From NCBI GenBank assembly GCA_026398875.1, contig JAPLSB010000024.1, forward strand, positions 248,001-312,000: a stretch of 64,000 nt of DNA, written 5' to 3'. The translations under genes and the position numbers were made by a program. Source of the DNA: Gammaproteobacteria bacterium. Lineage in GTDB: Bacteria > Pseudomonadota > Gammaproteobacteria > Nevskiales > Nevskiaceae. Positions 3,261-39,230 of this stretch are shown here, one piece after another. Below the pieces are notes generated by a model. That model searched no databases and was not told the origin of the DNA. It saw only the letters and a list, made by a program, of their open reading frames with translations. Each line of letters begins with the position of its first letter. Position 1 is the first letter of the stretch.

Positions 3261-5333
3261 ATGTTGACCACGCAGAAAGCGGCGCGTCACGCCAGCCTTG
3301 TCGAGTCTGCCGTCCAGAGAATGGTTCCGGCGACCGACATCGATCACCGCGTTCGGCATTCCTGGGCACGGTGCATCGAGACCTACTCGCTCGATCCGCA
3401 GGCGCCCAAGAAGGCAACCGTCATCGACCGCCCCGAGCTTCAGGCCAGACGCGAGCAGCACGGCCTGCTGCTGTCGATTGCCCGCATCGAACTGCTGAGC
3501 CTGCGCGAGCGTCTGCATCACAACGACTTCGGGATCATGCTCACCGACGAGGATGGCGTGATCCTGCACTACGTTGGCGACCCCGGATTTGCCGCCACAG
3601 CGAAGCGCAGCGGCCTGCGTGAGGGTGCGGTGTGGAGCGAACGCGAGCTGGGAACCAACGGCATGGGAACCTGCATCGTCGAACAACGCTCGGTCGTCAT
3701 CCACCAGAACGAACATTTCCTGGCCCAGAACACCGAGCTGACCTGCTCGGCAACGCCGATCTTCGATTCCCGCGGACGCGTCGTCGCAGCGCTCGACATC
3801 TCGGGCAGCTTCAATCGCGCGCAGACTCACACGCTGGCGCTGGTCGAGATCGCTGCCCAGAACATCGAGAACCGGACGCTGCTGGAAAGCTGCAAGCGCC
3901 ACTACATGCTTCGCTTCCACCGCCAGAAGGAATTCATCTCGACGCCGGGCGAAGGCATCGTTGCATTCGACGACAACGGCATGATCGTCGGTGCCAATCG
4001 CAGCGCCCTTGAACTGCTCGGCGTGCCTGATCACCGCGCACTGTGCGGTCAGCCACTCGAATCGGTATTCGACACCACGTTGTCGACCCAGATGCAGCTG
4101 GCGTCGCGGCGCGCCTTCCGCGCAGCACCGCTGCTGGCACGTGCCAGCCAGAGCAAGCTCTGGAGCGCGATCCAGCCGCCTGAACGCGACACCCGCAACG
4201 AGCCTGGGCGTCGCGAGCACGTCGTGCTGCCGGCCAGCACATCCTGCGGGCCTCTGGCGACGATGGAGTACGGCGACCCGCTGATGGCGAACAATGTTCG
4301 TATCGTCCGCCGCGTGATCGATCGTGACATCCCTGTGCTCCTGCTTGGCGAAACCGGCACAGGCAAGGGTTGCTTCGCGAAGGCGATTCATGCGGCAAGC
4401 CGCCGTGCAGACAAGCCCTTCGTCACCGTCAATTGCGCTGCCATTCCTGAAACGCTGATCGAGTCGGAGCTGTTCGGCTACAAGGCCGGGGCCTTCACCG
4501 GCGCCACGCGCGAAGGACATCCGGGTCGCGTCGTTCAGGCAAACGGCGGCACGCTGTTCCTCGACGAGATTGGCGATATGCCGCTGCCCCTGCAGGTTCG
4601 CCTGCTGTCGGTGATTGAAGACCGCGAGGTCATTCCGCTCGGCGGCTCGAAATCGATTCCAGTGGACATTCGCATCATCAGCGCCACTCATTGCGATCTG
4701 CTTCAGCAGGTCCGGGAGCGGCGGTTCCGCGAAGACCTCTACTACCGGCTCAATGGCTTGTCACTGCGCATGCCAGCGCTGCGTGATCGCCGCGACGCGC
4801 GCAACCTGATCCTGAATCTGATTCGCGAAGAATCGCGGGATCGCGGCAGCGCCATCGACATCGACGAGGCAGCGCTGCGCAGACTGCTGCAGTCGCCATG
4901 GCCGGGCAATATCCGGCAGTTGCGTAATGTGCTGCGCACGATGATCGCGATGTCCGAGAACGACAGCCTGACGCTTGCCGATTTCGACGAAGAATGGCTT
5001 TCGGGCGGAACACCGGGCGCAGCGCCGGCACAGCAGAACGACCCGATAGCGCTGGATCTAGATGGCGATGACGTGCTCGGCGAAGCCGAGCGGGAAGCGC
5101 TACGCCGGGTCCTCGAATGCTGTCGCTGGAATGTCAGCGCGGCCGCCGTGCAACTGCACGTAAGCCGGAAGACGCTGTATCGGAAGATGTTCCGGCATGG
5201 CATCACGCGGCGCGAAAACGCAGTAGCCGACGGGGGACAAGGCCGATCGCCCTCTGCACACGCAGCCAGTGCTGACGATGACCGGGCACCGGGCGGTCAC
5301 GCCCGTGGTAGGTCAGCGTTGATTGCCGATTGA
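3261..5333 (+). CDS. AcoR-type sigma-54-dependent transcriptional activator
   Basis: The 690-residue regulator has an N-terminal GAF-like sensor (about residues 70-205, including the GLREGAVWSERELGTNGMGT signature of AcoR-like activators) and a PAS-like segment around 220-275. The AAA+ domain follows, with Walker A GETGTGKG near residue 363 and GAFTGA near residue 410, the loop that contacts sigma-54. It ends in a Fis-type helix-turn-helix (NVSAAAVQLHVSRKTLYRK) and a disordered tail. Proteins of this family activate sigma-54 promoters of alcohol, acetoin or aldehyde oxidation genes in response to small metabolites. The start at 3261 is chosen for its GGAGG Shine-Dalgarno. It is a paralogue of the product of 47410-49461. 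The formaldehyde genes directly downstream are plausible targets, but no sigma-54 site was seen ahead of them. Confidence 0.88.
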   Translation: MLTTQKAARHASLVESAVQRMVPATDIDHRVRHSWARCIETYSLDPQAPKKATVIDRPELQARREQHGLLLSIARIELLSLRERLHHNDFGIMLTDEDGVILHYVGDPGFAATAKRSGLREGAVWSERELGTNGMGTCIVEQRSVVIHQNEHFLAQNTELTCSATPIFDSRGRVVAALDISGSFNRAQTHTLALVEIAAQNIENRTLLESCKRHYMLRFHRQKEFISTPGEGIVAFDDNGMIVGANRSALELLGVPDHRALCGQPLESVFDTTLSTQMQLASRRAFRAAPLLARASQSKLWSAIQPPERDTRNEPGRREHVVLPASTSCGPLATMEYGDPLMANNVRIVRRVIDRDIPVLLLGETGTGKGCFAKAIHAASRRADKPFVTVNCAAIPETLIESELFGYKAGAFTGATREGHPGRVVQANGGTLFLDEIGDMPLPLQVRLLSVIEDREVIPLGGSKSIPVDIRIISATHCDLLQQVRERRFREDLYYRLNGLSLRMPALRDRRDARNLILNLIREESRDRGSAIDIDEAALRRLLQSPWPGNIRQLRNVLRTMIAMSENDSLTLADFDEEWLSGGTPGAAPAQQNDPIALDLDGDDVLGEAEREALRRVLECCRWNVSAAAVQLHVSRKTLYRKMFRHGITRRENAVADGGQGRSPSAHAASADDDRAPGGHARGRSALIAD

Positions 5334-5483
5334 TGTGCGGACGGACATCAGGCGATCGACATCGCGATGCAAGCATCGTTACTGACCGAATCGCAGCGGT
5401 CTGAAGCAAACACCGGATCAGCCGCGAGGAAACCGTCACGCATCGGCAGCGTGCAGCACCGACTGATCAATTGACGTCTTCTT

Positions 5484-5501
5484 TCGCAGCCTGTTCTGCG
5501 A
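5484..5501. promoter_or_regulatory. Inverted repeat upstream of frmA
   Basis: TCGCAG (5484-5489) and CTGCGA (5496-5501) form a perfect 6-bp inverted repeat with a 6-base centre, about 95 bases before the frmA start. Its flanks (CTT on the left, AAG on the right) could extend it imperfectly. It could be an operator for the formaldehyde genes. No protein can be assigned from sequence alone. Confidence 0.3.
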
Positions 5502-5593
5502 CGAAAGTCGTCTGCGTAGTTGTAGCAGCGCTCGAATTACCGACAACCCGGGCGTGACACCCGCGCCCACCAGACAAGACAAGGAGCAAGACC

Positions 5594-6703
5594 ATGGATG
5601 TACGCGCCGCCGTTGCCTTCGAAGCCGGCAAGCCACTGTCGATCGAAACCGTGCAGCTCGATGGCCCGCGTGCGGGCGAAGTGCTGGTCGAGGTCAAGGC
5701 CACCGGCCTTTGCCATACCGACAAGTTCACGCTGTCCGGCGATGATCCGGAAGGCATGTTCCCGGTGATCCTCGGCCATGAGGGCGCTGGCATCGTCGTC
5801 GACGTTGGCGCCGGCGTCACCAGCGTCAAGAAGGGCGATCACGTGATTCCGCTGTACACGCCGGAATGCCGCGAGTGCGACTACTGCCTGTCCGGCAAGA
5901 CCAACCTCTGCCAGCGCATCCGCGCCACGCAGGGCAAGGGCCTGATGCCGGATGGCACCAGCCGCTTCAGCTTCCAGGGCAAGCCGGTACTGCACTACAT
6001 GGGCTGCTCGACGTTCGCGAACTACACGGTGCTGCCGGAAATTGCCGTTGCCAAGGTTCGTGAAGACGCGCCGTTCGACAAGATCTGCTACATCGGCTGC
6101 GGCGTGACCACCGGTATCGGTGCGGTGCTGTTCACCGCCAAGGTCGAGTACGGCACCAACTGCGTGGTGTTCGGTCTCGGCGGCATCGGTCTGAACGTGA
6201 TCCAGGGCCTGAAGATGGTCGGTGCCAACATGATCGTCGGCATCGACATCAATCCGGCTCGCGAAAAGATGGCCCGTCAGTTCGGCATGACGCATTTCGT
6301 CAACCCGAAGGAAGTCCAGGGCGACCTCGTTGCCCATCTCGTCGAGCTGACCAAGGGCGGCGCCGATCACACTTTCGAGTGCACCGGCAACGTCAAGCTG
6401 ATGCGGCAGGCGCTGGAGTGCTGCCACAAGGGCTGGGGCCAGTCGACGATCATCGGCGTGGCGCCAGCGGGTGCCGAAATCGCCACCCGTCCGTTCCAGC
6501 TGGTCACCGGCCGACGCTGGATCGGCTCGGCATTCGGCGGCGCGAAGGGGCGCACCGACGTGCCGCGAATCGTCGACTGGTACATGGACAAGAAGATCAA
6601 CATCGACGATCTGATCACTCACACGATGCCGCTGGAGAAGATCAACGACGGCTTCGATCTGATGGCGCGCGGTGAGTCGATCCGCGGCGTGGTGCTCTAC
6701 TGA
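5594..6703 (+). CDS. frmA: S-(hydroxymethyl)glutathione dehydrogenase / class III alcohol dehydrogenase
   Basis: The 369-residue cytosolic enzyme oxidises S-hydroxymethylglutathione (formaldehyde plus glutathione) to S-formylglutathione with NAD+. It shows the zinc medium-chain dehydrogenase layout: catalytic-zinc Cys in GLCHTD, His-Glu in GHEGAG, the four-Cys structural zinc loop ([16 protein letters not shown]), and a Rossmann fold with [12 protein letters not shown]. Length and sequence match class III ADH closely. A strong AAGGAG Shine-Dalgarno precedes the ATG. Its TGA overlaps the next ATG by one base, so it is translationally coupled to fghA, and together the two form the glutathione formaldehyde-detoxification pathway that handles the methanol dehydrogenase product. 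Confidence 0.96.
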
Positions 6704-7551
6704 TGACGGCAGCGATCGAGAAACGCAGCGACCAGGCCTGCTTCGGTGGCCGCATGGGGTTCTATACCCATGCGTCGAAAGAGACGGGTACGGCGATGAA
6801 GTTCGGCGTTTACCTTCCGCCCCAGGCCGCGCACCGCAAGGTGCCGGCGCTGTACTACCTGGCCGGCCTGACCTGCACCGAGGAAACCTTCCTGATCAAG
6901 GCCGGCGCCCAGCGCGTGGCCGCCGAGCTGGGTATTGCGCTGGTCGCCTGCGATACCAGCCCGCGTGGCCTGAACTTGCCGGGCGAGGCCGACAGCTGGG
7001 ACTTCGGTCTTGCTGCCGGCTTCTACCTGGATGCCACGCAGGACCCGTGGAAGACGAACTACCGCATGGGTTCGTACATCAATGCGGAATTGCCGGCGCT
7101 GATCGAAGCGAACTTCCCGGTGCTCGCCGAAAAGCGCGGCATCTTCGGCCACTCGATGGGCGGCCATGGCGCGCTGGTCACGGCACTCCGTAATCCAAGC
7201 CGCTGGCATTCGGTGTCGGCGTTCGCGCCGATCTCCAATCCGGTTGCAGTGCCCTGGGGCCAGAAGGCGTTCGGAAACTATCTCGGCGCCGATCAGTCCA
7301 CTTGGGAGCAGTACGACGCGAGTCTGCTGATCCGCAGCAAGCCGTATCCCGGCCTGCTGCTCGTCGATCAGGGTCTGGCCGACAATTTCCTGAATCGCGA
7401 ACTGAAGCCTGAGCATCTCGACGCCGCAGCGCGGGCATCAGGGCAGCGTCTCAGCTTGCGCCTGCACGCCGATTACGACCATTCGTACTGGTTCATCCAG
7501 AGCTTCGTCGCGGATCACCTGAAGCACCACGCGAGCCAGCTTGGCCTGTAA
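6703..7551 (+). CDS. fghA: S-formylglutathione hydrolase
   Basis: The 282-residue alpha/beta hydrolase of the esterase D family splits S-formylglutathione into formate and glutathione, the step after FrmA. The nucleophile elbow GHSMGGHG sits near residue 150. Other family landmarks are YYLAGLTCTEE near the oxyanion hole and the catalytic His region DHSYWFIQSF near the C-terminus. Length is normal. The start shares an A with the frmA stop (TGATG), indicating coupled translation. Formate produced here could feed a formate dehydrogenase, not present in this window, and supply reductant for the Calvin cycle encoded further right. Confidence 0.96.
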   Translation: MTAAIEKRSDQACFGGRMGFYTHASKETGTAMKFGVYLPPQAAHRKVPALYYLAGLTCTEETFLIKAGAQRVAAELGIALVACDTSPRGLNLPGEADSWDFGLAAGFYLDATQDPWKTNYRMGSYINAELPALIEANFPVLAEKRGIFGHSMGGHGALVTALRNPSRWHSVSAFAPISNPVAVPWGQKAFGNYLGADQSTWEQYDASLLIRSKPYPGLLLVDQGLADNFLNRELKPEHLDAAARASGQRLSLRLHADYDHSYWFIQSFVADHLKHHASQLGL

Positions 7552-7651: not shown

Positions 7652-7681
7652 TCAGAACATCAACCTGTGGAGGAGTGGGAA

Positions 7682-8083
7682 ATGAAGCAGCACATCCTGT
7701 TGTCCCTGATTGCTGTAACCGCGCTGACAGGCGGTGCATCAATCACCGCATCGGCGGCCGATGCGCCGCTCTATACAGTCGTCGATGGCACCAAGGTGGA
7801 CGCCGACACGCTGACCGGCTTCAAGACCTGGCGCGCCGCAGCCTGCGACCGCTGTCACGGTCCCAACCAGGAAGGTATGGTCGGCCCGTCTCTGGTCGAA
7901 AGTCTGAAGACGCTGACCAAGGACGAGTTCAAGGCCACCGTCACCAATGGCCGCCTTGAAAAGGGCATGCCGAGTTTCAGTACCAATGCCAAGGTCGTCG
8001 ATAACCTCGACAAGCTTTACGCGTATCTGAAGGGCAGGTCCGACGGCAAGATCACCGCGGCGAAAGTGACGGGCATCGAGTAA
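7682..8083 (+). CDS. Periplasmic cytochrome c, likely electron acceptor of methanol dehydrogenase (XoxG-like)
   Basis: The 133-residue protein has a signal peptide (residues 1-24, ASAAD) and one c-type heme site, CDRCH, with a likely axial Met in the GMPSF segment. It is small for a typical XoxG/MxaG cytochrome cL but has the right architecture for a class I cytochrome accepting electrons from a PQQ dehydrogenase. The true start is the ATG at 7682, which follows the GGAGG at 7669-7673 and gives a proper signal peptide; upstream in-frame GTG codons are rejected. Its stop overlaps the next ATG by one base (TAATG), tying it to the XoxJ-like gene, the usual xoxG-xoxJ pairing. Confidence 0.85.
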   Translation: MKQHILLSLIAVTALTGGASITASAADAPLYTVVDGTKVDADTLTGFKTWRAAACDRCHGPNQEGMVGPSLVESLKTLTKDEFKATVTNGRLEKGMPSFSTNAKVVDNLDKLYAYLKGRSDGKITAAKVTGIE

Positions 8084-9024
8084 TGACGCCCGGGCTGCGC
8101 GGCGGAGCCGTTGCGATGAATCCAGCCACGGGACTTCGAAAACCATTCCGGCGGCTTGCCGGGCGCCTTCCGATGCTGGCCTTGCTGGCGGTGGCAGTAG
8201 CAATGCCGTTGCTGCCTGCCGCCGCCCAGCAGGCCGACGACGGACGGAAGGCGTTGCGCATCTGCCGCGATCCCAACAACCTGCCGTTCCAGAACGTCAG
8301 GGGCGAAGGCTTTGAGGACAAGATCGCCGAACTGTTCGCCGCCGACCTCGGGGTCAAGGTCGAAGCCTTCGACTACCCTGCCCGCTTCAACTTCATCCGC
8401 AACACGCTGCGCTTCAAGCTGCCGGGAGATGATTTCCCCTGCGATCTGGTGATGGACGTGCCGGCAGGCTTCAGTCAGGGCACGGCATCAACGCGGCCGT
8501 ACTACCGATCTACCTACGCACTGGCCTTTCCCGGCAACAAGGCGCTGGCCGGCATCACCACGGTCGAGCAGTTTCTGGCGCTGCCGCAGGAAAAGCTGGC
8601 AAAACTCAAGATCGGCGTGATCGACAAGTCGCCGGCGTCCGACTGGCTGGCCAAGCGCGGCCTGCTCGACATCGGCGTGCCGTACCGGGTGCTGGTCGCA
8701 GATCCGGAGCAGAGCTCCGGCAGCATCATCGAAGGCGATCTGATCGCCGGCAAGCTTGACGCCGTCATCATCTGGGGGCCGATCGCTGGCTATTACGCCA
8801 AGCGTTACCCGGAAGCGGATCTGCGCGTCGTGCCGATGCAGTCCGAACGCAACATCAAGTTCGACTACGAGATCGCGATGGCCGTACGCATGGCCGACAA
8901 GGCCTGGCTGAAGACGGTCGACGGCCTCATCGAGCGCAACAAGGCGAAGATCGATGCAATCCTTGCCGACTACGGCGTGCCGCTGCTTGATCCGTTAGCG
9001 GCGACACCGGCCGGCGGCGACTGA
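8083..9024 (+). CDS. xoxJ: XoxJ-like periplasmic binding protein associated with quinoprotein dehydrogenase
   Basis: The 313-residue protein belongs to the solute-binding protein family 3 fold that accompanies methanol dehydrogenases (MxaJ/XoxJ), thought to bind and help mature the dehydrogenase rather than import a solute. Characteristic segments are LRICRDPNNLPF near the mature N-terminus, the domain-crossover GDDFPCDLVMDVP, and VDGLIERN near the end. The export signal is the hydrophobic stretch MLALLAVAVAMPLLPAAAQ. Translation may start at 8083 or at the in-frame ATG at 8116, since both leave the signal intact. It is coupled to the cytochrome gene by a one-base overlap. A second, divergent copy lies at 37930-38802. 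Confidence 0.86.
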   Translation: MTPGLRGGAVAMNPATGLRKPFRRLAGRLPMLALLAVAVAMPLLPAAAQQADDGRKALRICRDPNNLPFQNVRGEGFEDKIAELFAADLGVKVEAFDYPARFNFIRNTLRFKLPGDDFPCDLVMDVPAGFSQGTASTRPYYRSTYALAFPGNKALAGITTVEQFLALPQEKLAKLKIGVIDKSPASDWLAKRGLLDIGVPYRVLVADPEQSSGSIIEGDLIAGKLDAVIIWGPIAGYYAKRYPEADLRVVPMQSERNIKFDYEIAMAVRMADKAWLKTVDGLIERNKAKIDAILADYGVPLLDPLAATPAGGD

Positions 9025-9078: not shown

Positions 9079-9444
9079 ATGATCCCTCGCAACGCTGTAC
9101 CGCCGCTGGCCGCCCTGTTCGGCGCACTGGCCATCGCGGTGTCCCTGCCGGCGCAGGCCTACGACTACCCCACTGTCGATCGCGTGGAATTTGTCCACAT
9201 GTGTCAGCGCGAGCATCCGGACAAGCCGCCGCACGAAATGCTCTACAAGTGCGCCTGCGTGATCGACAAGCTCGGCGAAGCAATCCCCTACGATGATTTC
9301 GTCGAAAGTTCCACGGCGTACTACGCCTCGACGATTGCCGGCGAGCGCGGCCAAGTGATCCGCAACGAACGCGTTGCCAAGGCGCTGGCCGACAGTTTCC
9401 GCGAGCAGCTTGGCCGCGCTCGCAAATCCTGCTTCATCAACTGA
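9079..9444 (+). CDS. Small Cys-rich exported protein in the methanol-oxidation cluster
   Basis: The 121-residue product has a signal peptide (to about PAQAYD) and a mature part of ~94 residues with four cysteines (HMCQRE, YKCACVID, KSCFIN), which could form two disulfides in the periplasm. The only other recognisable trait is a predicted helical, charged body. No heme CxxCH is present. It starts 54 bases after the xoxJ-like gene and its stop is five bases before the zinc hydrolase ATG, so it is part of the same operon. Function unknown; a chaperone or redox partner for the quinoprotein is conceivable but unproven. Confidence 0.75.
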   Translation: MIPRNAVPPLAALFGALAIAVSLPAQAYDYPTVDRVEFVHMCQREHPDKPPHEMLYKCACVIDKLGEAIPYDDFVESSTAYYASTIAGERGQVIRNERVAKALADSFREQLGRARKSCFIN

Positions 9445-9449
9445 TCCCG

Positions 9450-10418
9450 ATGCACGCGCTGCGGATCGGCTCATTGTCGACCGCAGTGCTGATTGGTTCG
9501 CTGCTGGCCCTGCTGCTGGGCGCGCTGCCGATCACCGTCAATGCGGACGTTGCGGGCAAATCGCCGTTGCTGCTGGAGAACCCGGCCGACGGGATCTACG
9601 TCCATCGCGGCGCGATGGCGACGACTGCCGCCGAGAACGGCGGGGACATCGCCAATATCGGCTTCATTGTCGGCAGCCGCTGTGTTGCGGTCATCGATAC
9701 CGGCGGCACCCAGGCAGTCGGCACCGCCCTGCTCGCCGCGCTGCGCAAGCGCACCGACAAGCCGGTCTGCTACGTCATCCACACCCACGTCCACCCCGAC
9801 CACTCGTTCGGCGATGCTGCCTTTGTCGGCGACGCAACCGTGTTCGTGGCCCACGCCCGGTTTCCGGCGGCACTGGCCGCCCGACGCGAGGGCTACCGTC
9901 AGGCACTCGACAGGCTGCTCGGTGTGCAGGCTGCCGGCAGCGAGATCGCCATGCCGACGCTGCTGGTCGAAGGTGAACGGCAACTCGACCTTGGCGACCG
10001 CGTCATCAGCCTGAAGGCCTGGCCGACAGCACACACGAATCAGGATCTGACGGTCTTCGATCTGCGCACGAAAACCCTCTGGACCGGCGATCTGCTGTTC
10101 GCCGGCCACGTGCCGGTGGTCGATGGCAAGGCCATTGGCTGGCTGGCGGCGATCGACGCCTTGATCGCACTCAACGCAGCGCACGTGATCCCCGGCCATG
10201 GCCCGCCGTTGCGCGACGCCGCGACCGCATTCGCCGATCAGCGTCGCTATCTGCAGGTGCTGGTCTCGGAGTGCCGGCAGGCGCTGCGCGACGGCGTGAC
10301 GCTGGCCACCGCCGTCGATGCCATCGGTTCCGTTGAAAAGGAACGCTGGCTGCTGTTCGAGGACTACCATCGCCGCAACGTCACCGCCGTCTACACCGAA
10401 CTGGAGTGGGAGAACTGA
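9450..10418 (+). CDS. SoxH-like periplasmic zinc metallohydrolase (quinoprotein relay system, type 2)
   Basis: The 322-residue exported protein (signal residues 1-31) has a complete metallo-beta-lactamase fold signature: HTHVHPDHSFG (the HxHxDH motif), a His in WPTAHTNQD, the bridging Asp in TLWTGDLLFAG and the last His in IPGHGPP. It therefore should bind two metal ions and hydrolyse a thioester-like or ester bond, as glyoxalase II and SoxH relatives do. Family knowledge places such proteins next to PQQ dehydrogenases and SoxYZ-like carriers; the substrate is not known. The next gene, the carrier, starts two bases after its stop. Related hydrolases occur at 36197-37147 (intact) and 14102-15040 (ligands lost). 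Confidence 0.87.
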   Translation: MHALRIGSLSTAVLIGSLLALLLGALPITVNADVAGKSPLLLENPADGIYVHRGAMATTAAENGGDIANIGFIVGSRCVAVIDTGGTQAVGTALLAALRKRTDKPVCYVIHTHVHPDHSFGDAAFVGDATVFVAHARFPAALAARREGYRQALDRLLGVQAAGSEIAMPTLLVEGERQLDLGDRVISLKAWPTAHTNQDLTVFDLRTKTLWTGDLLFAGHVPVVDGKAIGWLAAIDALIALNAAHVIPGHGPPLRDAATAFADQRRYLQVLVSECRQALRDGVTLATAVDAIGSVEKERWLLFEDYHRRNVTAVYTELEWEN

Positions 10419-10420
10419 CC

Positions 10421-11281
10421 ATGCGCCGACGTGTTGCGCGGTACTCCACGCTGCTGCCGGGATTGCTGTTGCTGGCTGCCAGCCTGCTGTCGACGACTGC
10501 CGCGTTGGCAGACACAGCGCCGCAGGCCTCGGAGGTCAGCGTCTGGTCAAAGGTCCGCAGCGCCCTGTTCGGCAGTCGCGTGATCGACGAGAACGCCGAA
10601 GCGATCATCCGGCTCGATGCACCCAGCCGGGCAGAGGATGCGGCGACCGTGCCGATCGCGATCCGCAGCCAGCTGCTGCAGACGCCATCGCGCTATATCC
10701 GGAAGCTTTACCTGCTGGTCGACAACAATCCATCGCCGATCGCGGCGGTGTTCGAGTTGCAGCCGGAAAGTGGCCGCGCCGAGATCGAGACCCGTATCCG
10801 CGTCGAGCAGTACACCGAGGTTCGCGCGATTGCCGAACTCAACGATGGCGCGCTGTACATGGCGCACCGTTACGTCAAGGCGTCGGGCGGCTGCTCGGCG
10901 CCCGCCGGAAAGGACCCGCAGGAAGCCCTGCGCAATGTCGGCCGCATGCGCCTGCGCGTCGATGGGCCGATCGAAGCCGGCCGTCCGACGGTGGCACAGC
11001 TGGCGATCAGCCACCCGAATGCTTCGGGCCTGGTGCTTGATCAGCTGACGCGGCTATACCAGCCGGCGTACTACGTTCGCACGATCGAGGTCCGCTACGC
11101 CGGCCGGCCCGTGCTGACGGCCGATATCGATTTCTCGATCAGCGAGAACCCGAACTTCCGCTTCTACTTCGTGCCGGATGGCGATGGCGAACTGCAGGCC
11201 GACGTCGTCGACACCGAGGATCTGCACTTCGGTAGCCAGCTCGCGATCAAGGTCGGCGGCCTCGGCGGCCCGACGCGATGA
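10421..11281 (+). CDS. SoxYZ-like fused carrier protein associated with quinoprotein dehydrogenase
   Basis: The 286-residue exported protein fuses a SoxY-like N-terminal domain to a SoxZ-like C-terminal domain. Between them is a flexible KASGGCSAPAG segment with a single Cys, equivalent to the GGC swinging arm on which SoxY carries sulfur intermediates. The signal peptide covers about residues 1-33 (cleavage after AALA). The SoxZ part ends in FRFYFVPDGDGELQ and FGSQLAIKVGG. The ATG at 10421 is preferred; a GTG 15 bases upstream would overlap the hydrolase gene. No soxA, soxX, soxB or soxC lies nearby, so this is not thiosulfate oxidation; the carrier's cargo in the PQQ context is unknown. A second copy is at 37144-37899. 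Confidence 0.85.
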   Translation: MRRRVARYSTLLPGLLLLAASLLSTTAALADTAPQASEVSVWSKVRSALFGSRVIDENAEAIIRLDAPSRAEDAATVPIAIRSQLLQTPSRYIRKLYLLVDNNPSPIAAVFELQPESGRAEIETRIRVEQYTEVRAIAELNDGALYMAHRYVKASGGCSAPAGKDPQEALRNVGRMRLRVDGPIEAGRPTVAQLAISHPNASGLVLDQLTRLYQPAYYVRTIEVRYAGRPVLTADIDFSISENPNFRFYFVPDGDGELQADVVDTEDLHFGSQLAIKVGGLGGPTR

Positions 11282-14101: not shown

Positions 14102-15040
14102 ATGTCGATGGCGTCCCGCACCGTCGTGCTTGCACGCCTTGTCGTCATCGCCGCACTGCTGGCATTCATCGGCAGCCTGCGCGCCGAGGTCGTGACGCTC
14201 GCCGCTGGTGTCCATGCCGATCTGGGCAGCCACACGGCGATTGCGCCGGAGAATCTCGGCGAGATCGCCAACAGTGGCTTGATCGTCGGAGAACAGCAGA
14301 TGCTGGCGATCGACAGCGGCGTATCGCGCGCGCATGGCGAGCGCCTCTACGCCGCCTGGAAGGCACGCGCAGACAAGCCATTCGCTGGATTGCTGCTGAC
14401 GCAGCCGCACCAGGAGTTCCTGTTCGGTGCCGGCGCTTTCCAGGCGCATGGCGTCCGCGTGATCGCCCATCGCGATGCAGCGCTGCTGATGCGCCAGCGC
14501 TGCGAGAACTGCCTGACTCACCTGCGCGAACGGCTGCCCGGCGGCTTGATGAAGGGCACCGCCTTGATCACGCCGGACCGCCTGCTGGACAGCGCAATAC
14601 CGATCGATCTCGGCGAGCGGATCGTGCAGTTGATCGACGGCGGCCAGGCCACCACGCCGGGCACGCTGGCCGTGTTCGACGCCACCAGCGGAACGCTGTT
14701 TGCCGGAGGGCTGATCGCCAGCCAGCGGATTCCGAGCCTGCGCGACGCCCGCATCGCCGAGTGGCTGGCGGTGCTAGAGGCGCTGCGCAAGCTGCCGGTC
14801 AAGCGCATCGTGCCGGGCTTCGGGCCAGTCGGCGATCAGGGCCAGATCAGCGACATGCAGCGCTACCTGCAGCAGATCGACACCGCCGTGCGCCGCGAAT
14901 ACCAGCGCGGGGCGAGCCTGCTCGAAACCGTGGCGGCCGTGCAGCTGCCGGCATACGCCAGCTGGAACGAGTACGCCGTGCTGCATCCGCAGAACGTGCA
15001 GTACCTCTACCGACAGCTGGAAGACGCCGACTTCAAGTGA
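14102..15040 (+). CDS. Exported metallo-beta-lactamase-fold protein with lost metal ligands (degenerate quinoprotein-relay hydrolase)
   Basis: The 312-residue exported protein aligns along its length with the SoxH-like hydrolase at 36197-37147, but its metal site is dismantled. The HxHxDH motif (LTHAHPDH in the paralogue) is LTQPHQEF. The next His (GHTDGD) is in a GQATTPG stretch. The bridging Asp (FAGDLVF) is Gly in FAGGLIA. The final His (PGHGP) is Phe in PGFGP. The fold's other landmarks remain (ANSGLIVG, MLAIDSGVS), so it looks like a pseudoenzyme, possibly a partner or scaffold, rather than random decay; the frame is intact. The start is the ATG five bases after the PAP2 stop. Its 3' end overlaps the convergent cbbR end by eight bases. 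Confidence 0.8.
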   Translation: MSMASRTVVLARLVVIAALLAFIGSLRAEVVTLAAGVHADLGSHTAIAPENLGEIANSGLIVGEQQMLAIDSGVSRAHGERLYAAWKARADKPFAGLLLTQPHQEFLFGAGAFQAHGVRVIAHRDAALLMRQRCENCLTHLRERLPGGLMKGTALITPDRLLDSAIPIDLGERIVQLIDGGQATTPGTLAVFDATSGTLFAGGLIASQRIPSLRDARIAEWLAVLEALRKLPVKRIVPGFGPVGDQGQISDMQRYLQQIDTAVRREYQRGASLLETVAAVQLPAYASWNEYAVLHPQNVQYLYRQLEDADFK

Positions 15041-16032: not shown

Positions 16033-17568
<1,536 letters not shown>

Positions 17569-17585
17569 GCCCGGGAGCCACGATC

Positions 17586-18020
17586 ATGATGACCAATACC
17601 AACCAGCGGCTGACGCAGGGCCAGTTCTCGTTCCTGCCGGATCTCACCGACACGCAGATCACCGCGCAGCTCGACTACGCGCTCAAGAACGGCTGGGCGA
17701 TCGGCGTCGAGTACACCGACGATCCGCATCCGCGCAACACCTACTGGGAAATGTTCGGCAACCCGATGTTCGATCTGAAGGACGCCGCCGGTGCGCTGAT
17801 GGAAATCAACAGCGCCCGCAAGACTTTCCCGAACCAGTACATCCGGGTCACCGCTTTCGACGCCACCCGCGGGGTCGAGTCGCCGACGATGTCGTACATC
17901 GTCAATCGTCCCGCGAAAGAACCGGGTTTCGGTCTCGTGCGCCAGGAAGTCGATGGCCGCGCGATTCGCTACACCATTCATTCCTACGCCACCGACAAGC
18001 CGGAAAGCGAACGCTACTGA
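17586..18020 (+). CDS. cbbS: RuBisCO small subunit, form I
   Basis: The 144-residue small subunit shows the conserved blocks [14 protein letters not shown], the [21 protein letters not shown] core and [11 protein letters not shown]. The C-terminal extension ([20 protein letters not shown]) is typical of red-type form I small subunits, whose hairpin helps assemble the L8S8 enzyme without a dedicated chaperone. It starts 17 bases after cbbL and precedes cbbX by 88 bases. Two ATG codons three bases apart can serve as start. Confidence 0.96.
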
Positions 18021-18108
18021 TACCGACTGACTTGCACGGCGGGTGGCGATGGCCGCAATGGCTCTCGTCACCGCCGCCCGTTTATTGCCCTTGACCGAGG
18101 AGGCGACT

Positions 18109-19014
18109 GTGGACGACGCGAAGACCGTAGACCTCCAGGCGATCGTTCGCGATTCGAACGTCACCGAGGTGCTCGACCAGCTCGACCGCGAGCTGGTCGG
18201 ACTGGCGCCGGTGAAGCGGCGCATCCGCGAGATCGCGGCGTATCTGGCGGTGACGCGCGCCCGCAAGACGCTGGGTCTCGAAGCAACGCCGCCGAGCCTG
18301 CACATGTGCTTCACCGGCAATCCCGGCACCGGCAAGACCACGGTGGCGCTGCGGATGGCAGAAATCCTCCACCGGCTTGGCTATGTCCGCAAAGGCCATG
18401 TGGTGTCGGTGACCCGCGATGATCTGGTCGGCCAGTACATCGGACACACCGCGCCCAAGACCAAGGAGGTGCTGAAAAGGGCGATGGGCGGCGTGCTGTT
18501 CATTGACGAGGCCTACTACCTGTACCGGCCGGAAAACGAGCGTGACTACGGTCAGGAATCGATCGAGATCCTGCTGCAGGTGATGGAGAACAATCGCGAC
18601 GACCTCGTCGTGATCCTGGCCGGTTACCACGACCGGATGAACACGTTCTTCAGCTCGAATCCCGGCATGTCGTCGCGCATCGCGCATCACGTCGACTTCC
18701 CGGATTACTCGCAGCCGGAGTTGCTGTCGATAGCCGGGAAGATGGTCAGCGCGATGAATTACCGTTTCGACGCCGATGCCCAGCAGGCGATGGGCTACTA
18801 CATCGATCGCCGGCTCACGCAGCCGAACTTCGCCAATGCCCGCTCGGTGCGCAATGCGCTGGACCGCGCCCGGCTGCGGCAGGCGAACCGGCTTTTTGCC
18901 GGCGTCGGCGCTGGGCGGCCCAATGTCACGGCCGATGATCTCAGCACGCTATCCGCGTCCGATATCCTCGCCTCGCGAGTGTTCGACGCACCCGATTCCG
19001 CCGACAAGACCTGA
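18109..19014 (+). CDS. cbbX: RuBisCO activase CbbX
   Basis: The 301-residue AAA+ protein has Walker [10 protein letters not shown] near residue 71 and Walker [11 protein letters not shown], plus the [16 protein letters not shown] sensor region shared by CbbX. CbbX is the activase that removes tight-binding sugar phosphates from red-type RuBisCO by pulling on the CbbL C-terminus, so its presence matches the red-type small subunit. The start is the GTG at 18109 preceded by a GAGGAGG Shine-Dalgarno; an in-frame ATG at 18043 has no such site. It lies between cbbS and fbp in the operon. Confidence 0.95.
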
Positions 19015-19024
19015 GGGCCCCGCC

Positions 19025-20098
19025 ATGCAACCCGGAAGAACCACGCTCTCGAAGTTTCTGATCGAGCAACTGCATGAAGTCGATGACAACGGCCAGCTGG
19101 CCGGCCTGCTGATCGACGTGGCGGCGGCGATGAAATCGATCGCCGCCATGACTGCCAAGGGCGCGCTCGGCGGCTTCCACGGCAACATCGAAGCCACCAA
19201 CATCCAGGGCGAGATCCAGAAGAAGCTCGACGTGCTGTCGAATGACGCGCTGATCGATGCCTGCGAATGGGGCGGCACGCTGGCCGGGATGATCTCCGAG
19301 GAAAACGAGGACCCGATCCGGATTCCACCGGAGTTCAAGCGGGGCCGCTACCTGCTGAACTTCGACCCGCTCGATGGCTCGTCGAACATCGACGTCAATG
19401 TCTCGGTCGGCACCATCTTTTCGGTGCTGGTGCACGACAACGACGCCGAGCCGACCAAGGCCGATTTCCTGCAGATCGGGCGCAAGCAGGTCGCTGCCGG
19501 TTACGCGATCTACGGGCCGGCAACGATGCTGGTGATCACGGTCGGCAAGGGCACCCACGGGTTCACGCTGGATCGGGAAATCGGCAACTTCATCCTGACC
19601 CACGAGAACCTGCTGATTCCCGAGGACACCAGCGAATTCGCGATCAATACCTCGAACGAGCGCTTCTGGGAGCCGCCGGTGTCGCGCTATGTCGAGGAGT
19701 GCAAGGCCGGCAAGACCGGCGTGCGCGGCCGCGACTTCAACATGCGCTGGATCGCGTCGATGGTTGCCGAAGTCCATCGCATCCTGATGCGCGGCGGCGT
19801 CTTCATGTACCCGCGCGACACCAAGGATCCGCAGAAGCCGGGCCGCCTGCGGCTGCTGTACGAAGCCAATCCGGTCGGCTTCATCATCGAGCAGGCCGGT
19901 GGCGCAGCCAGCCATGGCCGCGGACCGATCCTCGATCATCCGGCCGAGTCGCTGCACCAGCGGATCGCGGTGATCTTCGGATCGCGGAACGAGGTCGAGC
20001 GCATCGAGCGCTATCACGCCGAGTTCGATGCCGGCGAGGATCGTCCGTTCATCTCGCCGTTGTTCAGCAATCGCTCGCTGTACCGCTCGGAAGTCTGA
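19025..20098 (+). CDS. cbbF: Fructose-1,6-bisphosphatase class I (Calvin-cycle)
   Basis: The 357-residue enzyme hydrolyses fructose-1,6-bisphosphate (and often sedoheptulose-1,7-bisphosphate) for ribulose-bisphosphate regeneration. The metal-binding [13 protein letters not shown] signature, the upstream acidic EENED stretch and the [18 protein letters not shown] substrate segments identify class I FBPase. Length is normal. It starts ten bases after cbbX; its Shine-Dalgarno is poor (GAGGGCCCC), suggesting coupling to cbbX translation. Phosphoribulokinase follows after 62 bases. Confidence 0.95.
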
Positions 20099-20160
20099 GC
20101 CCAAGTCCCACCAGAACAGCCGCCCGCACACCACGAGGCGATCGACACGAGGAGACGCGC

Positions 20161-21033
20161 ATGTCCGTCAAGCATCCGATCATCGCGGTGACCGGCTCAT
20201 CTGGAGCCGGAACGACGACGGTGATGAAAGCGTTCCAGCACATCTTCCGGCGCGAAAAGCTGAAGCCCGGTGTCGTCGAAGGGGATGCCTTCCACCGCTT
20301 CGATCGGCTGGGCATGCGCGCGCGGCTGAAAGAGGAAGAAAGCCAGGGCAACACGCACTTCAGCCACTTCGGCCCGGAAGCCAACCTGATCGAGGAACTC
20401 GAGAAGCTGTTCCGCAGCTATGGCAAGAGCGGCACCGGCAAGATCCGTCACTACCTGCACGATGCCGACGAGGCCGCGCCGTACAAGCAGGACCCCGGCA
20501 CGTTCACGCCTTGGGTCGATCTTCCGGACAACACCGACCTGCTGTTCTACGAAGGCCTGCATGGCGGCTATGCCGACGAAAAGCACAACATCGCCGCCCA
20601 GGTCGATCTGCTGGTCGGCGTGGTGCCGATCATCAATCTCGAATGGATCCAGAAGCTGCACCGCGACAAGAACATGCGCGGTTACTCGCAGGAAGCGGTT
20701 GTCGACACGATCCTCCGGCGCATGCCGGACTACATCAACCACCTGTGCCCGCAGTTCTCGCGCACCCACGTGAACTTCCAGCGCGTGCCCACGGTGGACA
20801 CCTCCAACCCGTTCATTGCACGCGATATTCCGACCGCCGACGAGTCGATGCTGGTGATTCGTTTCGCCGACCCGAAGGGCATCGACTTCCAGTACCTGCT
20901 GAGCATGCTGCACGGTTCGATGATGACCCGGCCAAACAACATCGTCTGCCCGGGTGGCAAAATGTCGCTCGCGATGCAGATGATCTTCACGCCGATGATC
21001 CTGCGTCTGATGGACAAGAAGCGCCGCGCCTGA
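20161..21033 (+). CDS. cbbP: Phosphoribulokinase
   Basis: The 290-residue bacterial-type enzyme phosphorylates ribulose-5-phosphate to the RuBisCO substrate. It has the P-loop GSSGAGTTTV at residues ~12-21, followed by the EGDAFHRFDR segment with the catalytic Asp, and the LLFYEGLHGGY block. The ATG at 20161 has an excellent ACGAGGAGA site upstream. Together with CbbL it marks a functional Calvin cycle rather than a RuBisCO-like salvage route. A striking inverted repeat separates it from the transketolase gene. Confidence 0.97.
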   Translation: MSVKHPIIAVTGSSGAGTTTVMKAFQHIFRREKLKPGVVEGDAFHRFDRLGMRARLKEEESQGNTHFSHFGPEANLIEELEKLFRSYGKSGTGKIRHYLHDADEAAPYKQDPGTFTPWVDLPDNTDLLFYEGLHGGYADEKHNIAAQVDLLVGVVPIINLEWIQKLHRDKNMRGYSQEAVVDTILRRMPDYINHLCPQFSRTHVNFQRVPTVDTSNPFIARDIPTADESMLVIRFADPKGIDFQYLLSMLHGSMMTRPNNIVCPGGKMSLAMQMIFTPMILRLMDKKRRA

Positions 21034-21064
21034 CCGGGCGGCCCACCCCAACAACATTCCTCAT

Positions 21065-21144
21065 GCAGAGAACGCGAAGCGCGCAGAGAACAGCCAGACC
21101 GGAAGTGTTGTTGCCGTTCTCTGCGTCCTTTGCGTTCTCTGCGT
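21065..21144. repeat. Long imperfect inverted repeat between cbbP and cbbT
   Basis: The left arm (about 21065-21091) and the right arm (about 21115-21144) are nearly perfect inverted copies. Each arm itself contains two copies of a GCAGAGAAC-type unit (as GTTCTCTGC on the right). The arms are separated by ~24 bases. The layout resembles dispersed intergenic REP/BIME-like elements of proteobacteria and could also fold as an mRNA-processing hairpin within the operon. Confidence 0.75.
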
Positions 21145-21174
21145 GAGATCGCTTTTTTCAAGCCCAAACAAGTC

Positions 21175-23226
21175 ATGACCGCCCCACTGAACGCCGCCGC
21201 CCGTCGCCGTCTGGCCAACGCCATCCGCTTTCTCGCCATCGACGGCGTGGAAGCCGCGAAGTCCGGCCACCCCGGCATGCCGATGGGCATGGCCGATCTC
21301 ACTGAAGTGCTGTGGCGCGACTACCTGAAGCACTCGCCGAACAACCCGAAGTGGGCTGACCGTGACCGCTTCCTGATTTCCAACGGCCACGGCTCGATGC
21401 TGCATTACGCAGCGCTGAACCTGGCCGGCTACGACCTGCCGATCGAGGAGCTGAAGAAGTTCCGCCAGCTGCACTCGAAGACCGCCGGCCATCCCGAATT
21501 CGCGATCACGCCGGGCGTCGAAACCACCACCGGTCCGCTGGGTCAAGGCATCGCCAACGGCGTTGGCATGGCGCTGGCTGAAAAGCTGCTTGCCGCTCGC
21601 TACAACAAGCCGGGCCACACGATCGTCGACCACCGTACCTTCGTGTTCCTTGGCGACGGCTGCCTGATGGAAGGCGTCAGCCACGAAGTCTGCTCGCTGG
21701 CCGGCGTGTTCGGCTTGAACAAGCTGGTCTGCTACTACGACGACAACGGCATCTCGATCGACGGCCATGTCGAAGGCTGGTTCCGCGACGACACCGCCGC
21801 CCGCTTCAAGGCCTATGGCTGGCACGTGATCGGCCCGATCGATGGCCACGACGTGGCAGCCATCGACGCAGCAACGAAGGAAGCACTGGCCCAGACCGCC
21901 AAGCCGACGCTGATCATCGCCCGCACCCAGATCGGCTGGGGCTCGCCGAACAAGGTCGGCACCGAGGAGGTTCACGGCGCGGCACTCGGTGCCGCCGAAG
22001 TCGCTGCCACCCGTGCCGCGCTCGACTGGAACTATGGCCCGTTCGAGATTCCCGACGACATCCGCGCCGCCTGGGATGCCCGCGCAGCTGGCGACGCCAA
22101 GGAAGCGGCCTGGAACGCGGCATTCGCTGCCTACAAGACCGCGTTCCCGCATGAAGCGGAAGAGTTCCTGCGCACTCAGCACGGCCTGCTGCCGAAGAAC
22201 TGGCTGGACACCACGAAGGCGCTGCTGGCTTCGGCTCATGGCGTGACGGCGGCGGTCGCCACTCGCAAGTCCTCGCAGGTCGCGCTCGAAGCGCTGGTGC
22301 CCGCGGTGCCGGAACTGCTCGGCGGTTCGGCCGACCTCACCGGCTCCAATCTCACGGCAGCCAAGGCCAGCGCCGCGTTCCACACGGTTGGTGCAACCGG
22401 CAACTACGTCAGCTACGGCGTCCGTGAATTCGGCATGGCGGCGATCATGAACGGCGTGGCGCTGCACGGCGGCTTCATTCCGTACGGCGGCACCTTCGCG
22501 GTGTTCTCCGACTACATGCGCAACGGCATGCGCATGAGCGCGCTGATGAAGCTGCGCGTGATCTACGTGCTGACCCACGATTCGATCGGCCTCGGCGAAG
22601 ACGGCCCGACCCACCAGCCGGTCGAGCATGCCGCGAGCCTGCGCGCGATTCCGAACCTGGACGTCTGGCGGCCTTGCGATGCACTGGAAACGGCGGTGGC
22701 CTGGAAGGCCTCGATCGAACGCCACGACGGCCCGGCGGCGCTGCTGCTGTCGCGCCAGAACCTGGCCCAGCAGAAGCATGGCGACGGCGCCGAAGCGCTG
22801 ATCGAGCGCGGCGGCTATGTGCTGGCCGAATCGGAACTGCCGATCAACGTGATCCTCATCGCCACCGGCTCGGAAGTGACGCTGGCGGTGCAGGCCCAGG
22901 CCAGCCTCGCCGCGCTCGGTATCGGCGCGCGCGTGGTGTCGATGCCGTCGACCGACGTCTTTGATCGTCAGGACGCCGCCTACAAGGCCGAGGTTCTGCC
23001 ACGCGGCCTGCCACGGGTCGCGGTTGAAGCCGGCACGGCTGACGGCTGGTACAAGTACATCGGCCTCGACGGCGGCTTCGTCGGCATGTCCAGCTTCGGC
23101 GAATCGGCCCCGGCGCCGGCGCTTTACGAGTACTTCGGCATCACCGCTGCGGCGGTCGTCAAGGCGGCGCAGCAGGTGGTCGAAACCACGACCGCGCCGG
23201 CGATCATCGAACGGTCGAGCAACTGA
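21175..23226 (+). CDS. cbbT: Transketolase
   Basis: The 683-residue thiamine-diphosphate enzyme transfers two-carbon units in Calvin-cycle regeneration and the pentose phosphate pathway. Recognisable segments include [25 protein letters not shown], the ThDP-binding [12 protein letters not shown] with the FLGDG/DDN metal site, and [14 protein letters not shown]. Length is usual. The ATG at 21175 is preferred over an upstream GTG inside the repeat. The Shine-Dalgarno is weak. It lies between the inverted repeat and the phosphatase gene, five bases before the next ATG. Confidence 0.96.
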
Positions 23227-23231
23227 AGCGC

Positions 23232-23954
23232 ATGAGCCGCCCGTTCGACGCCGTGCTGTTCGATCTGGACGGCACACTGCTCGAAACCGCGCCGGAAATC
23301 GGCGCGGCGGTCAGTCTGGCGATCGCCGAACAGGGGCTGCCGCCGGTCGACATCGCCGGCGTGCGCTTTTTCATCGGCCACGGCGTGCGCCAGACGATCG
23401 CCAAGGCCTATGACACAGTGGCGCCACCAGGCACTACCGCCACAAAGCGCGATGCTGACATCGACGCGGCACTGCTCCGCTTCGAGCATCACTACGCTCG
23501 GCTGGCGCCGCAAAGCCAGCCGTTCGCCGACACAGTGTCGACCTTGCGCACGCTGCGGGCGCTCGGCGTGAAGTGCGCCATCGTGTCGAACAAGGAAACC
23601 CGCTTCGTCGAACAGTTGCTGGCCGGCGGGCCGCTGCCAGCGCTGATCGACCTGCTGGTCTGCGGCGACACGCTGGCCAGGAAGAAGCCGGACGCCGCCC
23701 CGATCCTGTACGCGCTGGAAAAGTTCGGTACCGCCGCGGCGCGGACCTTGATGGTCGGCGACTCGTCGATCGACGTCGCCTGCGCCCGCAATGCCGGCGT
23801 CCCGGTATGGATGGTGCCGTATGGCTACAACGGCGGCGAACCGGCCGAGCTGGCCGGTGCCGACCGGGTGATTCCAACCCTGACCGAAGTCGCACTCGCC
23901 TGTTCCGGCACGGTGTCTGCGTCGGTTACCCTAAGTGGCGGTGTCAAAAGCTGA
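23232..23954 (+). CDS. cbbZ: Phosphoglycolate phosphatase (HAD family)
   Basis: The 240-residue HAD hydrolase removes phosphate from 2-phosphoglycolate made by RuBisCO oxygenation. Motif I FDLDGTLLET, motif II SNKE and motif III/IV VGDSSIDV (with KKPD upstream) are all present. The cap region FFIGHGVRQ resembles Gph/CbbZ. It follows cbbT by five bases and is embedded in the cbb operon, which supports the CbbZ assignment over a generic sugar phosphatase. Confidence 0.93.
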   Translation: MSRPFDAVLFDLDGTLLETAPEIGAAVSLAIAEQGLPPVDIAGVRFFIGHGVRQTIAKAYDTVAPPGTTATKRDADIDAALLRFEHHYARLAPQSQPFADTVSTLRTLRALGVKCAIVSNKETRFVEQLLAGGPLPALIDLLVCGDTLARKKPDAAPILYALEKFGTAAARTLMVGDSSIDVACARNAGVPVWMVPYGYNGGEPAELAGADRVIPTLTEVALACSGTVSASVTLSGGVKS

Positions 23955-24000
23955 TATCAGCCTAGCGCCGCCCCCAACAAACCCAAAGAGATTGAATTCA

Positions 24001-38802: not shown

Positions 38803-39230
38803 CAGTCTTCGACGTGGACGCTGACGAGGTAGCTGCGGATCGCCCAGATCGCCTCTTCCTTGAACACGTCCTTGAATGCCGGCATGTATGTCACGCCGTT
38901 GCGGACTGCGCCGTTCTGGACCTTGCCCTTGAAGTATTCATCGGTAGGCTGGTCAGTCGGCAAGTAGCGGAGGTCCGGCGCAATGCCACCGGAAACGGCA
39001 CCGAGACCGTGGCAGCGTGCACAGTTCTGGTTGAACGCCGACGAACCCAGCTTGATCGCTTCAGGGTTGCCGACGTAGGGATTCTTGTCGACCGGCGCTG
39101 CCAGCGGCGGCAGCTTGGAGGTATCGACGGCCTGCGGCGTGACATCGCCATGCGCGAAGGCGACGGCACTGGCGAAACCGAGTGCGGTGACGGCCGCGCG
39201 TGCGGCGAGCTTGATCGGATTGCGGTTCAT
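38802..39230 (-). CDS. pedF: Cytochrome c-550 PedF-like electron acceptor
   Basis: The 142-residue exported protein (signal to AVAFAH) has one heme site CARCH and a conserved tail YMPAFKDVFKEEAIWAIRSYL that supplies the axial Met. The N-terminal HGDVTPQAVDT and LGSSAFNQNC segments match the PedF/ExaB-type cytochromes that accept electrons from PQQ ethanol dehydrogenases. The ATG at 39230 (MNRNPIKL) is chosen; the longer frame lacks family sequence. It is separated from the PQQ alcohol dehydrogenase gene by a terminator, so it can be transcribed separately. Confidence 0.9.
   Translation of the reverse strand: MNRNPIKLAARAAVTALGFASAVAFAHGDVTPQAVDTSKLPPLAAPVDKNPYVGNPEAIKLGSSAFNQNCARCHGLGAVSGGIAPDLRYLPTDQPTDEYFKGKVQNGAVRNGVTYMPAFKDVFKEEAIWAIRSYLVSVHVED

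Follow-up and report, generated by a model that had tools for sequence, protein, structure and literature searches.

A candidate periplasmic protein-thiol module accompanying pyrroloquinoline quinone alcohol dehydrogenases in a Nevskiaceae genome

The window analyzed here, a 64,000-nucleotide stretch of a Nevskiaceae genome (GenBank assembly GCA_026398875.1, contig JAPLSB010000024.1, positions 248,001 to 312,000), encodes two copies of a gene pair consisting of a zinc metallohydrolase and a carrier protein in which SoxY- and SoxZ-like halves are fused. The first pair lies on the forward strand at 9450-10418 (hydrolase) and 10421-11281 (carrier), and the second on the reverse strand at 36197-37147 and 37144-37899, respectively. 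Profile scores confirmed these coordinates, as well as the repetition of the pair and the established family names given in an earlier reading of the DNA (referred to as the original prediction), both pairs exceeding the curated cut-offs of TIGR04557 for the carrier and TIGR04559 or TIGR04558 for the hydrolase. The E values of the two pairs, ranging from 4e-63 to 5e-121, rule out a chance match. The genome itself (G000) comprises 4.15 Mb in 24 contigs, is 95% complete, and contains two carrier matches.

The first hydrolase belongs to the quinoprotein relay zinc metallohydrolase 2 family (TIGR04559, 383 bits against a cut-off of 280) and runs from an ATG at 9450 to a stop at 10418, yielding a metallo-beta-lactamase-fold protein of 322 residues with a signal-peptide-like start (such starts, and some lineage names, were judged by eye). 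The full zinc site claimed for it is indeed present: all seven ligands (HHDHHDH) are found as H113, H115, D117, H118, H195, D214, and H250, with an H-x-H-x-D-H motif at 9786-9803 and the further ligands within 10026-10046 (H), 10083-10100 (D), and 10191-10205 (H). Two bases separate its stop from the carrier, which starts at an ATG at 10421 (the mechanically called open reading frame begins at a GTG 15 bases upstream) and extends over 286 residues (TIGR04557, 275 bits, cut-off 140). Pfam places SoxY at residues 47-158 and SoxZ at 185-270, so that a GGC arm (residues 156-158; codons 10886-10894, Cys158, as read in the sequence) lies between the halves, as had been predicted. In the confidently predicted structure (predicted local distance difference test, pLDDT, 85), the halves match SoxY (2ox5, Z 12.1, 2.0 Å over 112 residues) and SoxZ (1v8h, Z 9.8, 1.9 Å over 105 residues), and the arm blocks show the lowest order of any inner segment, with pLDDT values of 73 and 67 versus 84-98 in the remaining folded part. 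On the model, the protein is built like a thiol carrier with a swinging arm, the swinging itself being presumed.

The second pair is embedded in a ped/exaF-type cluster on the reverse strand, in the order dehydrogenase, PedF cytochrome, PedG-like binding protein, carrier, hydrolase, and divergent quinoprotein. The cluster opens with an ExaF-type pyrroloquinoline quinone (PQQ) alcohol dehydrogenase at 39405-41345 (TIGR03075, 782 bits, cut-off 480) bearing a vicinal Cys-Cys pair, followed by cytochrome c550 PedF at 38802-39350 (TIGR04494, 179 bits, cut-off 122) and a PedG-like periplasmic binding protein at 37930-38802 (SBP_bac_3), which falls in the same cluster (16) as its counterparts in Pseudomonas-type loci. 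The ExaF-associated carrier at 37144-37899 (TIGR04557, 213 bits) has its GGC at 37480-37488 and overlaps by 4 bases with the hydrolase gene at 36197-37147, a quinoprotein relay zinc metallohydrolase 1 (TIGR04558, 403 bits) with a full HHDHHDH site. At 34416-36206, in the PedH position, lies a divergent second quinoprotein (TIGR03075, 379 bits, below the cut-off) in which the catalytic Trp-Asp is replaced by Trp-Gly (VPHDLWGYD) and the vicinal Cys-Cys is kept. The statement that the pairs stand beside quinoproteins is thus exact for the second module; for the first, the nearest quinoprotein is an XoxF-type PQQ methanol dehydrogenase whose C-terminal end occupies positions 1-640 of the forward strand, nearly 9 kb upstream. 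Its gene starts about 1.1 kb before the window (G000:C22:246901-248508; TIGR03075, 734 bits), its product carries the motifs TPFDEWDFDGINE and CCDTVNRG, and it places in the XoxF clade. Both this enzyme and the ExaF-type one contain WDFDG, in which a further Asp follows the catalytic one at the second position, the mark of lanthanide-type PQQ dehydrogenases; by this signature, both are predicted to be lanthanide enzymes.

A third hydrolase paralogue, absent from the original prediction, is located on the forward strand at 14102-15040. It has a signal-peptide-like start and scores 199 bits with TIGR04559, below the cut-off of 280, and its ligand positions read Q-H-E-F-T-G-F, so that it falls outside the family by both score and ligands; in addition, it carries a CXXC motif (CENC) at 14501-14512. 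Zinc-less paralogues of this CXXC type occur in 43 of the 80 best carrier loci, a set drawn as the best of 569 confirmed loci, biased to relatives of the window carrier and including some short contigs. Cys 146 and Cys 149 are present in all 45 zinc-less copies read (43 from these loci, one from G246, and the window copy), compared with none of 93 zinc-competent relatives and none of three NHDYHGH forms (described below), and the 45 copies form one clade with a support of 0.99. The ratio of nonsynonymous to synonymous substitution rates has a median of 0.16 within this clade (47 pairs) versus 0.17 for the active enzyme (89 pairs), the pairs not being independent; the CXXC clade is under purifying selection as strong as that on the active enzyme. 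A zinc-less paralogue with a gained cysteine pair suggests that the module's job may be thiol chemistry.

Co-occurrence was analyzed in 279 Pseudomonadota genomes, the same sample being profile-searched for five families. Carrier matches were found in 98 genomes and exceeded the cut-off in 52, from which 21 were dropped because of stops inside the match, as expected from separate SoxY and SoxZ genes, leaving 31 genomes with the carrier in one open frame. A PQQ alcohol dehydrogenase is present in 31/31 of these fused-carrier genomes versus 29/248 others (60/279 overall; Fisher p 8e-25), and a hydrolase relative, counted at E up to 1e-40, in 31/31 versus 17/248 (48/279 overall; p 3e-29). A CXXCW rhodanese over its cut-off was detected in 27 of the 31 carrier genomes and in none of the 248 others (27/279 overall; p 1e-33), with weaker matches in 12 further genomes, none of them a carrier genome. 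These Fisher tests are uncorrected for kinship among phylogenetically non-independent genomes and sequence pairs, and some matches may be missed, as at first look up to 5 dehydrogenase, 8 hydrolase, and 12 rhodanese candidates were scored per genome. The arm cysteine is invariant, the GGC being found in 38/38 fused carriers of this sample and in the aligned column of 92/92 carrier open reading frames from the 80 best loci.

Carrier types also track dehydrogenase clades. In a tree of the 112 dehydrogenase sequences read, including 30 of the 50 listed for carrier-less genomes and leaving out a single carrier-genome dehydrogenase that scores below the cut-off (G111:C109), the XoxF and ExaF/PedE groups are each monophyletic (support 0.86 and 1.0). 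An XoxF-clade dehydrogenase is encoded in 19 of the 21 genomes with a first-type carrier (the exceptions being G191 and G271) and in none of the 10 carrier genomes lacking that type (p 1.5e-6), and an ExaF/PedE-clade enzyme in all 14 genomes with a second-type carrier versus none of the 17 other carrier genomes (p 3.8e-9). The lanthanide-type Asp occurs in 30/31 carrier genomes (exception G054) versus 11/29 carrier-less PQQ genomes, or 13/29 if the Asp alone is counted.

The first carrier is fused, carries its GGC internally, and fails the thiosulfate-type SoxYZ profiles (SoxY_true, 87 bits, cut-off 125; SoxZ_true, 45 bits, cut-off 76). The absence of other Sox components, noted for the window in the original prediction, holds genome-wide for SoxB, with no TIGR04486 match in the 95% complete genome, SoxA, SoxX, SoxC, and SoxD not having been searched genome-wide. 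Co-occurrence with soxAXB in relatives, which had been named in advance as a point against the prediction, is seen weakly, and for SoxB as the one component tested: 11/31 carrier genomes versus 25/248 others (36/279 overall; p 5e-4). General sulfur oxidation as the main role was rejected, as SoxB is missing from 20/31 carrier genomes and from G000.

Candidate thiol partners differ between lineages. In 5 of 42 neighbourhoods (L043, L044, L046, L049, and L050), genes for thioredoxin and/or CcdA come after those of the carrier and a rhodanese, and the genes drawn include no dehydrogenase; the rhodanese motif C-X3-C-W was found in 23/23 sequences read. Of these partners, thioredoxin and CcdA are reminiscent of SoxW and SoxV of thiosulfate oxidation, and the presence of the three proteins in other carrier operons points to a possible sulfur or thiol-redox chemistry, an option that the original prediction had left aside. 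In 32 of 48 beta- and gammaproteobacterial carrier genomes, a CXXC paralogue lies near the carrier. The first module further includes, at 9079-9444 on the forward strand, a small secreted-looking protein with four cysteines (C...CxC...C), all four kept in 46/46 aligned relatives, that has no family match in Pfam or NCBIfam. The pattern looks like a putative lineage-specific swap of one thiol partner for another, with taxonomy as a confounder.

Based on these observations, we prefer, tentatively and at somewhat less than an even chance, to read the pairs as a periplasmic protein-thiol module that serves specific PQQ alcohol dehydrogenases and almost always occurs in genomes encoding an enzyme of the lanthanide type. 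This reading rests on gene content, dehydrogenase-clade pairing, the invariant cysteine, the state of the zinc sites, the CXXC clade, and the independence of the module from SoxB; docking on the dehydrogenase, the cargo, and the resetting step are inferred. Briefly, the arm cysteine of each carrier would work with a single dehydrogenase clade (XoxF in the case of the first pair, ExaF/PedE in that of the second) and would take up a covalent group arising during alcohol oxidation, which the zinc hydrolase may strip off where its zinc site is intact. As the paralogues are clade-specific, the simplest reading is that the cysteine holds something that is produced at the dehydrogenase or harms it; an aldehyde-level group, as hemithioacetal or thioester, is tentatively favoured over a sulfur group. 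The arm thiol would then be kept or reset free by lineage-differing dithiol partners, possibly the C-X3-C-W rhodanese, thioredoxin, and CcdA in some, and in beta- and gammaproteobacteria, including the window genome, probably the zinc-less CXXC paralogue and the four-Cys protein, judging from their cysteines. That in these classes a metallo-beta-lactamase-fold protein lost its metal site, gained a CXXC, and became a dithiol oxidoreductase resetting the arm thiol of the carrier that serves the lanthanide methanol dehydrogenase is a doubtful proposal in its full form; if true, it would represent a new use of this fold in an unrecognized periplasmic protein-thiol pathway of alcohol oxidation.

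Several findings weigh against the thiol-module reading or limit its reach. A rhodanese over the cut-off is found in 0/48 beta- and gammaproteobacterial carrier genomes, which gave three weak matches, and in the stretch examined, neither a CXXC paralogue nor a four-Cys protein is seen at 29 of the 80 best loci (19 with Methylococcales titles); because of these loci and the missing rhodanese, the dithiol partners are not universal, and the rhodanese as a universal partner was rejected on the same count. Lanthanide-type dehydrogenases also exist in carrier-less genomes, nine with an ExaF/PedE-clade enzyme and two with XoxF, and the module is therefore not generally required for them. Some lineages have lost the zinc site and still retain the carrier cysteine: the second-module hydrolase reads N-H-D-Y-H-G-H in eight genomes, five betaproteobacterial and three others of one family (loci L057, L058, and L059; L310, L312, L313, L314, and L315), and two Rubrivivax gelatinosus genomes encode a dehydrogenase and two GGC carriers with a zinc-less CXXC protein as the sole hydrolase relative (E up to 1e-30). 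Hydrolytic release therefore cannot be universal or obligatory; release of the cargo by the hydrolase is plausible for copies with an intact zinc site, but as a general rule it is contradicted by the zinc-less lineages. The group on the cysteine is likewise inferred, none having been observed there. Finally, transposon data from Pseudomonas putida, as given in a review, indicate that, in the absence of rare earths, these genes have a minimal effect with short-chain alcohols (PMC12997753; this and the other papers cited by PMC number are represented here by excerpts). The thiol relay of the original prediction is thus retained as a quinoprotein-dedicated thiol module, given the invariant arm cysteine, the 31/31 co-occurrence, the clade match, and the absence of SoxB from 20 of the 31 genomes, and abandoned with respect to hydrolytic release as a general step.

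Zinc-site states were also compared with the rhodanese distribution. Among 106 hydrolase-family copies in the 80 best loci, 60 have all seven ligands, 43 are of the zinc-less CXXC kind, and 3 are truncated. A rule that rhodanese loss goes with zinc-site loss initially fitted, the seven ligands being kept in 29/29 hydrolase copies of rhodanese-bearing genomes and the second-module site being intact in G348 and G334. The rule was rejected, as that site is also intact in G000, G439, G300, and G391, which are without a rhodanese over the cut-off.

Among the alternatives, the aldehyde relay of the original prediction, in which an aldehyde made by the quinoprotein is held on the carrier cysteine as a hemithioacetal, oxidized to a thioester, and freed as an acid by the hydrolase, as a protein-bound counterpart of glutathione-dependent formaldehyde oxidation, appears unlikely as a complete scheme. 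Carrier types that follow dehydrogenase clades are what would be expected of an enzyme-derived cargo, and in the window genome, as in three close relatives (L212-L214), the glutathione-pathway genes belong to the same gene row. Viral contigs that carry the carrier without the hydrolase also fit, as phages tend to carry stoichiometric carriers. The AlphaFold model of the first hydrolase (pLDDT 92) matches PqsE, a thioesterase-fold protein, with a Z of 23.2 over 257 residues, but higher scores are reached by chlorothalonil dehalogenase (6uxu, Z 32.3) and an uncharacterized Burkholderia protein (8d2z, Z 32.8), and alkylsulfatases and class B beta-lactamases (Z 23-25) equal or slightly exceed PqsE. 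The best 50 fold matches do not include glyoxalase II, which does not exclude a likeness to it; on the model, the fold by itself does not discriminate between a thioester and a sulfate substrate. The aldehyde relay also leaves the zinc-less hydrolases of carrier-retaining lineages unexplained and gives the rhodanese, thioredoxin, and CcdA no obvious role.

Another alternative is that the carrier picks up sulfite, thiosulfate, or sulfane sulfur that otherwise forms adducts with PQQ or the enzyme, to be discharged by the SoxH-like hydrolase and the rhodanese; a shielding of PQQ or methanol dehydrogenase against sulfur compounds is a published proposal (PMC12997753, PMC11237559). The SoxY and SoxZ folds of the carrier halves, the presence of alkylsulfatases among the solved structures nearest in fold to the hydrolase, and the confinement of the over-cut-off rhodanese to carrier genomes (27/27 in the 279-genome sample) are consistent with such a clean-up. 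However, a general scavenger need not have dehydrogenase-specific paralogues, the rhodanese is missing from the 48 beta- and gammaproteobacterial carrier genomes, and SoxB occurs in just 11 of 31. We consider this explanation rather improbable.

A role in maturation or repair of the dehydrogenase, for example making or mending its vicinal disulfide, has likewise been proposed (PMC12997753, PMC11237559, with maturation and the vicinal disulfide suggested in a 2026 review), and it is in line with the clade-specific pairing and the thiol-redox partners; the zinc-site loss in some lineages would fit a binding role. Against it, the vicinal pair is present in 102 of the 112 dehydrogenases read, including all 30 from carrier-less genomes, and 29 of 60 PQQ genomes do without the module. 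The pair does not discriminate, and vicinal-disulfide maturation was rejected as the discriminating role; it is missing from one truncated reading and from nine divergent relatives, each of which comes from a carrier genome. Maturation or repair is also rated as rather improbable. A mere leftover of sulfur oxidation, unconnected to alcohol oxidation, is suggested by sequence kinship to SoxYZ and SoxH, but is extremely improbable given a PQQ dehydrogenase in 31/31 carrier genomes and SoxB in 11/31.

The protein-thiol module that we prefer can be placed beside two familiar systems. It resembles the SoxYZ/SoxB thiosulfate system in combining a carrier cysteine on a GGC arm with a hydrolase, and differs from it in the fusion of Y and Z, an internal arm instead of a C-terminal GGCGG, a metallo-beta-lactamase-fold hydrolase, and the absence of SoxB in G000. 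With glutathione-dependent formaldehyde oxidation (FlhA, FghA), it would share a thiol-bound C1 chemistry, as proposed here. Both genes of that pathway are encoded in the window on the forward strand, S-(hydroxymethyl)glutathione dehydrogenase at 5594-6703 (TIGR02818, 610 bits, cut-off 544) and S-formylglutathione hydrolase at 6703-7551 (TIGR02821, 428 bits, cut-off 282). Glutathione is a soluble cytoplasmic tripeptide, whereas the window carrier would present a secreted protein thiol.

The closest described relatives are the NCBIfam families TIGR04557, TIGR04558, and TIGR04559 and the P. putida proteins PP_2677, PP_2678, and PP_2666, to which the window conforms in that both pairs exceed the curated cut-offs. 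The second module has the same gene order as the ped cluster of P. putida, tabulated as PP_2674-PP_2679 (PMC12997753). The window genome differs from the P. putida and NCBIfam relay system in lacking a CXXCW rhodanese over the cut-off, in having two pairs for two dehydrogenase clades, and in its third, zinc-less CXXC paralogue. In excerpts of a study of lucinid symbionts, the fused carriers SoxYZ-S2 and SoxYZ-S4 are described near soxH, with a PQQ alcohol dehydrogenase gene next to one kind and xoxF next to the other (PMC11237559); the clade matching counted here over 31 genomes, the zinc-site states, and the CXXC clade were not met in those excerpts. A soxH gene beside xoxF5 has been reported in a Roseobacter methylotroph (PMC5934484), and in P. 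putida, methanol upregulates the ped cluster PP_2662-PP_2683, with the carrier and hydrolase genes not named in the excerpt (PMC10308882). As far as the excerpts go, PMC12875217 maps the locus only, PMC12423496 treats PQQ and Sox regulation and gives no role for the fusion, and no mention of the carrier-hydrolase pair was found in PMC13088180 or PMC7391723. Among the literature matches listed (titles and abstract starts, mostly outside subscription journals), there is no measured reaction for the pair and no CXXC metallo-beta-lactamase relative beside a methanol dehydrogenase. The families and hypotheses about them are already published; what is new is the CXXC clade of zinc-less paralogues and the matching of carrier types to dehydrogenase clades by counts. 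Bacteria commonly have methanol and ethanol dehydrogenases of the lanthanide type, and the carrier-hydrolase pair accompanies many of them. With the clade matching and the redox-looking zinc-less paralogue, what had been a loose annotation becomes a thiol pathway that can be tested, in which the partners have names and one residue can be targeted by mutation.

The remaining genes of the first module lie on the forward strand between the dehydrogenase and the pair. C24 (1898-2560) encodes a secreted-looking protein (cluster 24) with no family match in NCBIfam or Pfam, conserved beside the carrier in beta- and gammaproteobacteria; in many betaproteobacterial xoxF clusters it stands between the binding protein and the carrier. 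Downstream of the glutathione-pathway genes are a c-type cytochrome resembling those of methanol metabolism (7667-8083; TIGR03874, 62 bits, below the cut-off of 162; Pfam Cytochrome_CBB3) and a MoxJ/XoxJ-type periplasmic binding protein (8083-9024; TIGR03871, 246 bits, cut-off 212). The gene order PQQ dehydrogenase, binding protein (SBP5), C24, four-Cys protein, metallo-beta-lactamase-fold hydrolase, and carrier recurs in the carrier loci of relatives; the closest carriers among the 80 best loci are from a Lysobacteraceae metagenome-assembled genome (82%) and two from Nevskia (75% and 69%). Just past the methanol module, at 16045-25064, Calvin-cycle genes encode the RuBisCO large subunit, CbbX, fructose bisphosphatase, transketolase, and aldolase, which suggests a possible autotrophic use of methanol carbon.

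Fused carriers also occur in viruses. A viral member has been reported from the lucinid-symbiont work (PMC11237559), and carrier genes with an intact GGC were found here on 11 viral contigs, with no hydrolase within the stretches examined. In one of these (L322, carrier at 4920-5711), a terminase large subunit is encoded two genes upstream, and in another (L325, carrier at 4671-5777), a DnaB-like helicase is encoded directly upstream.

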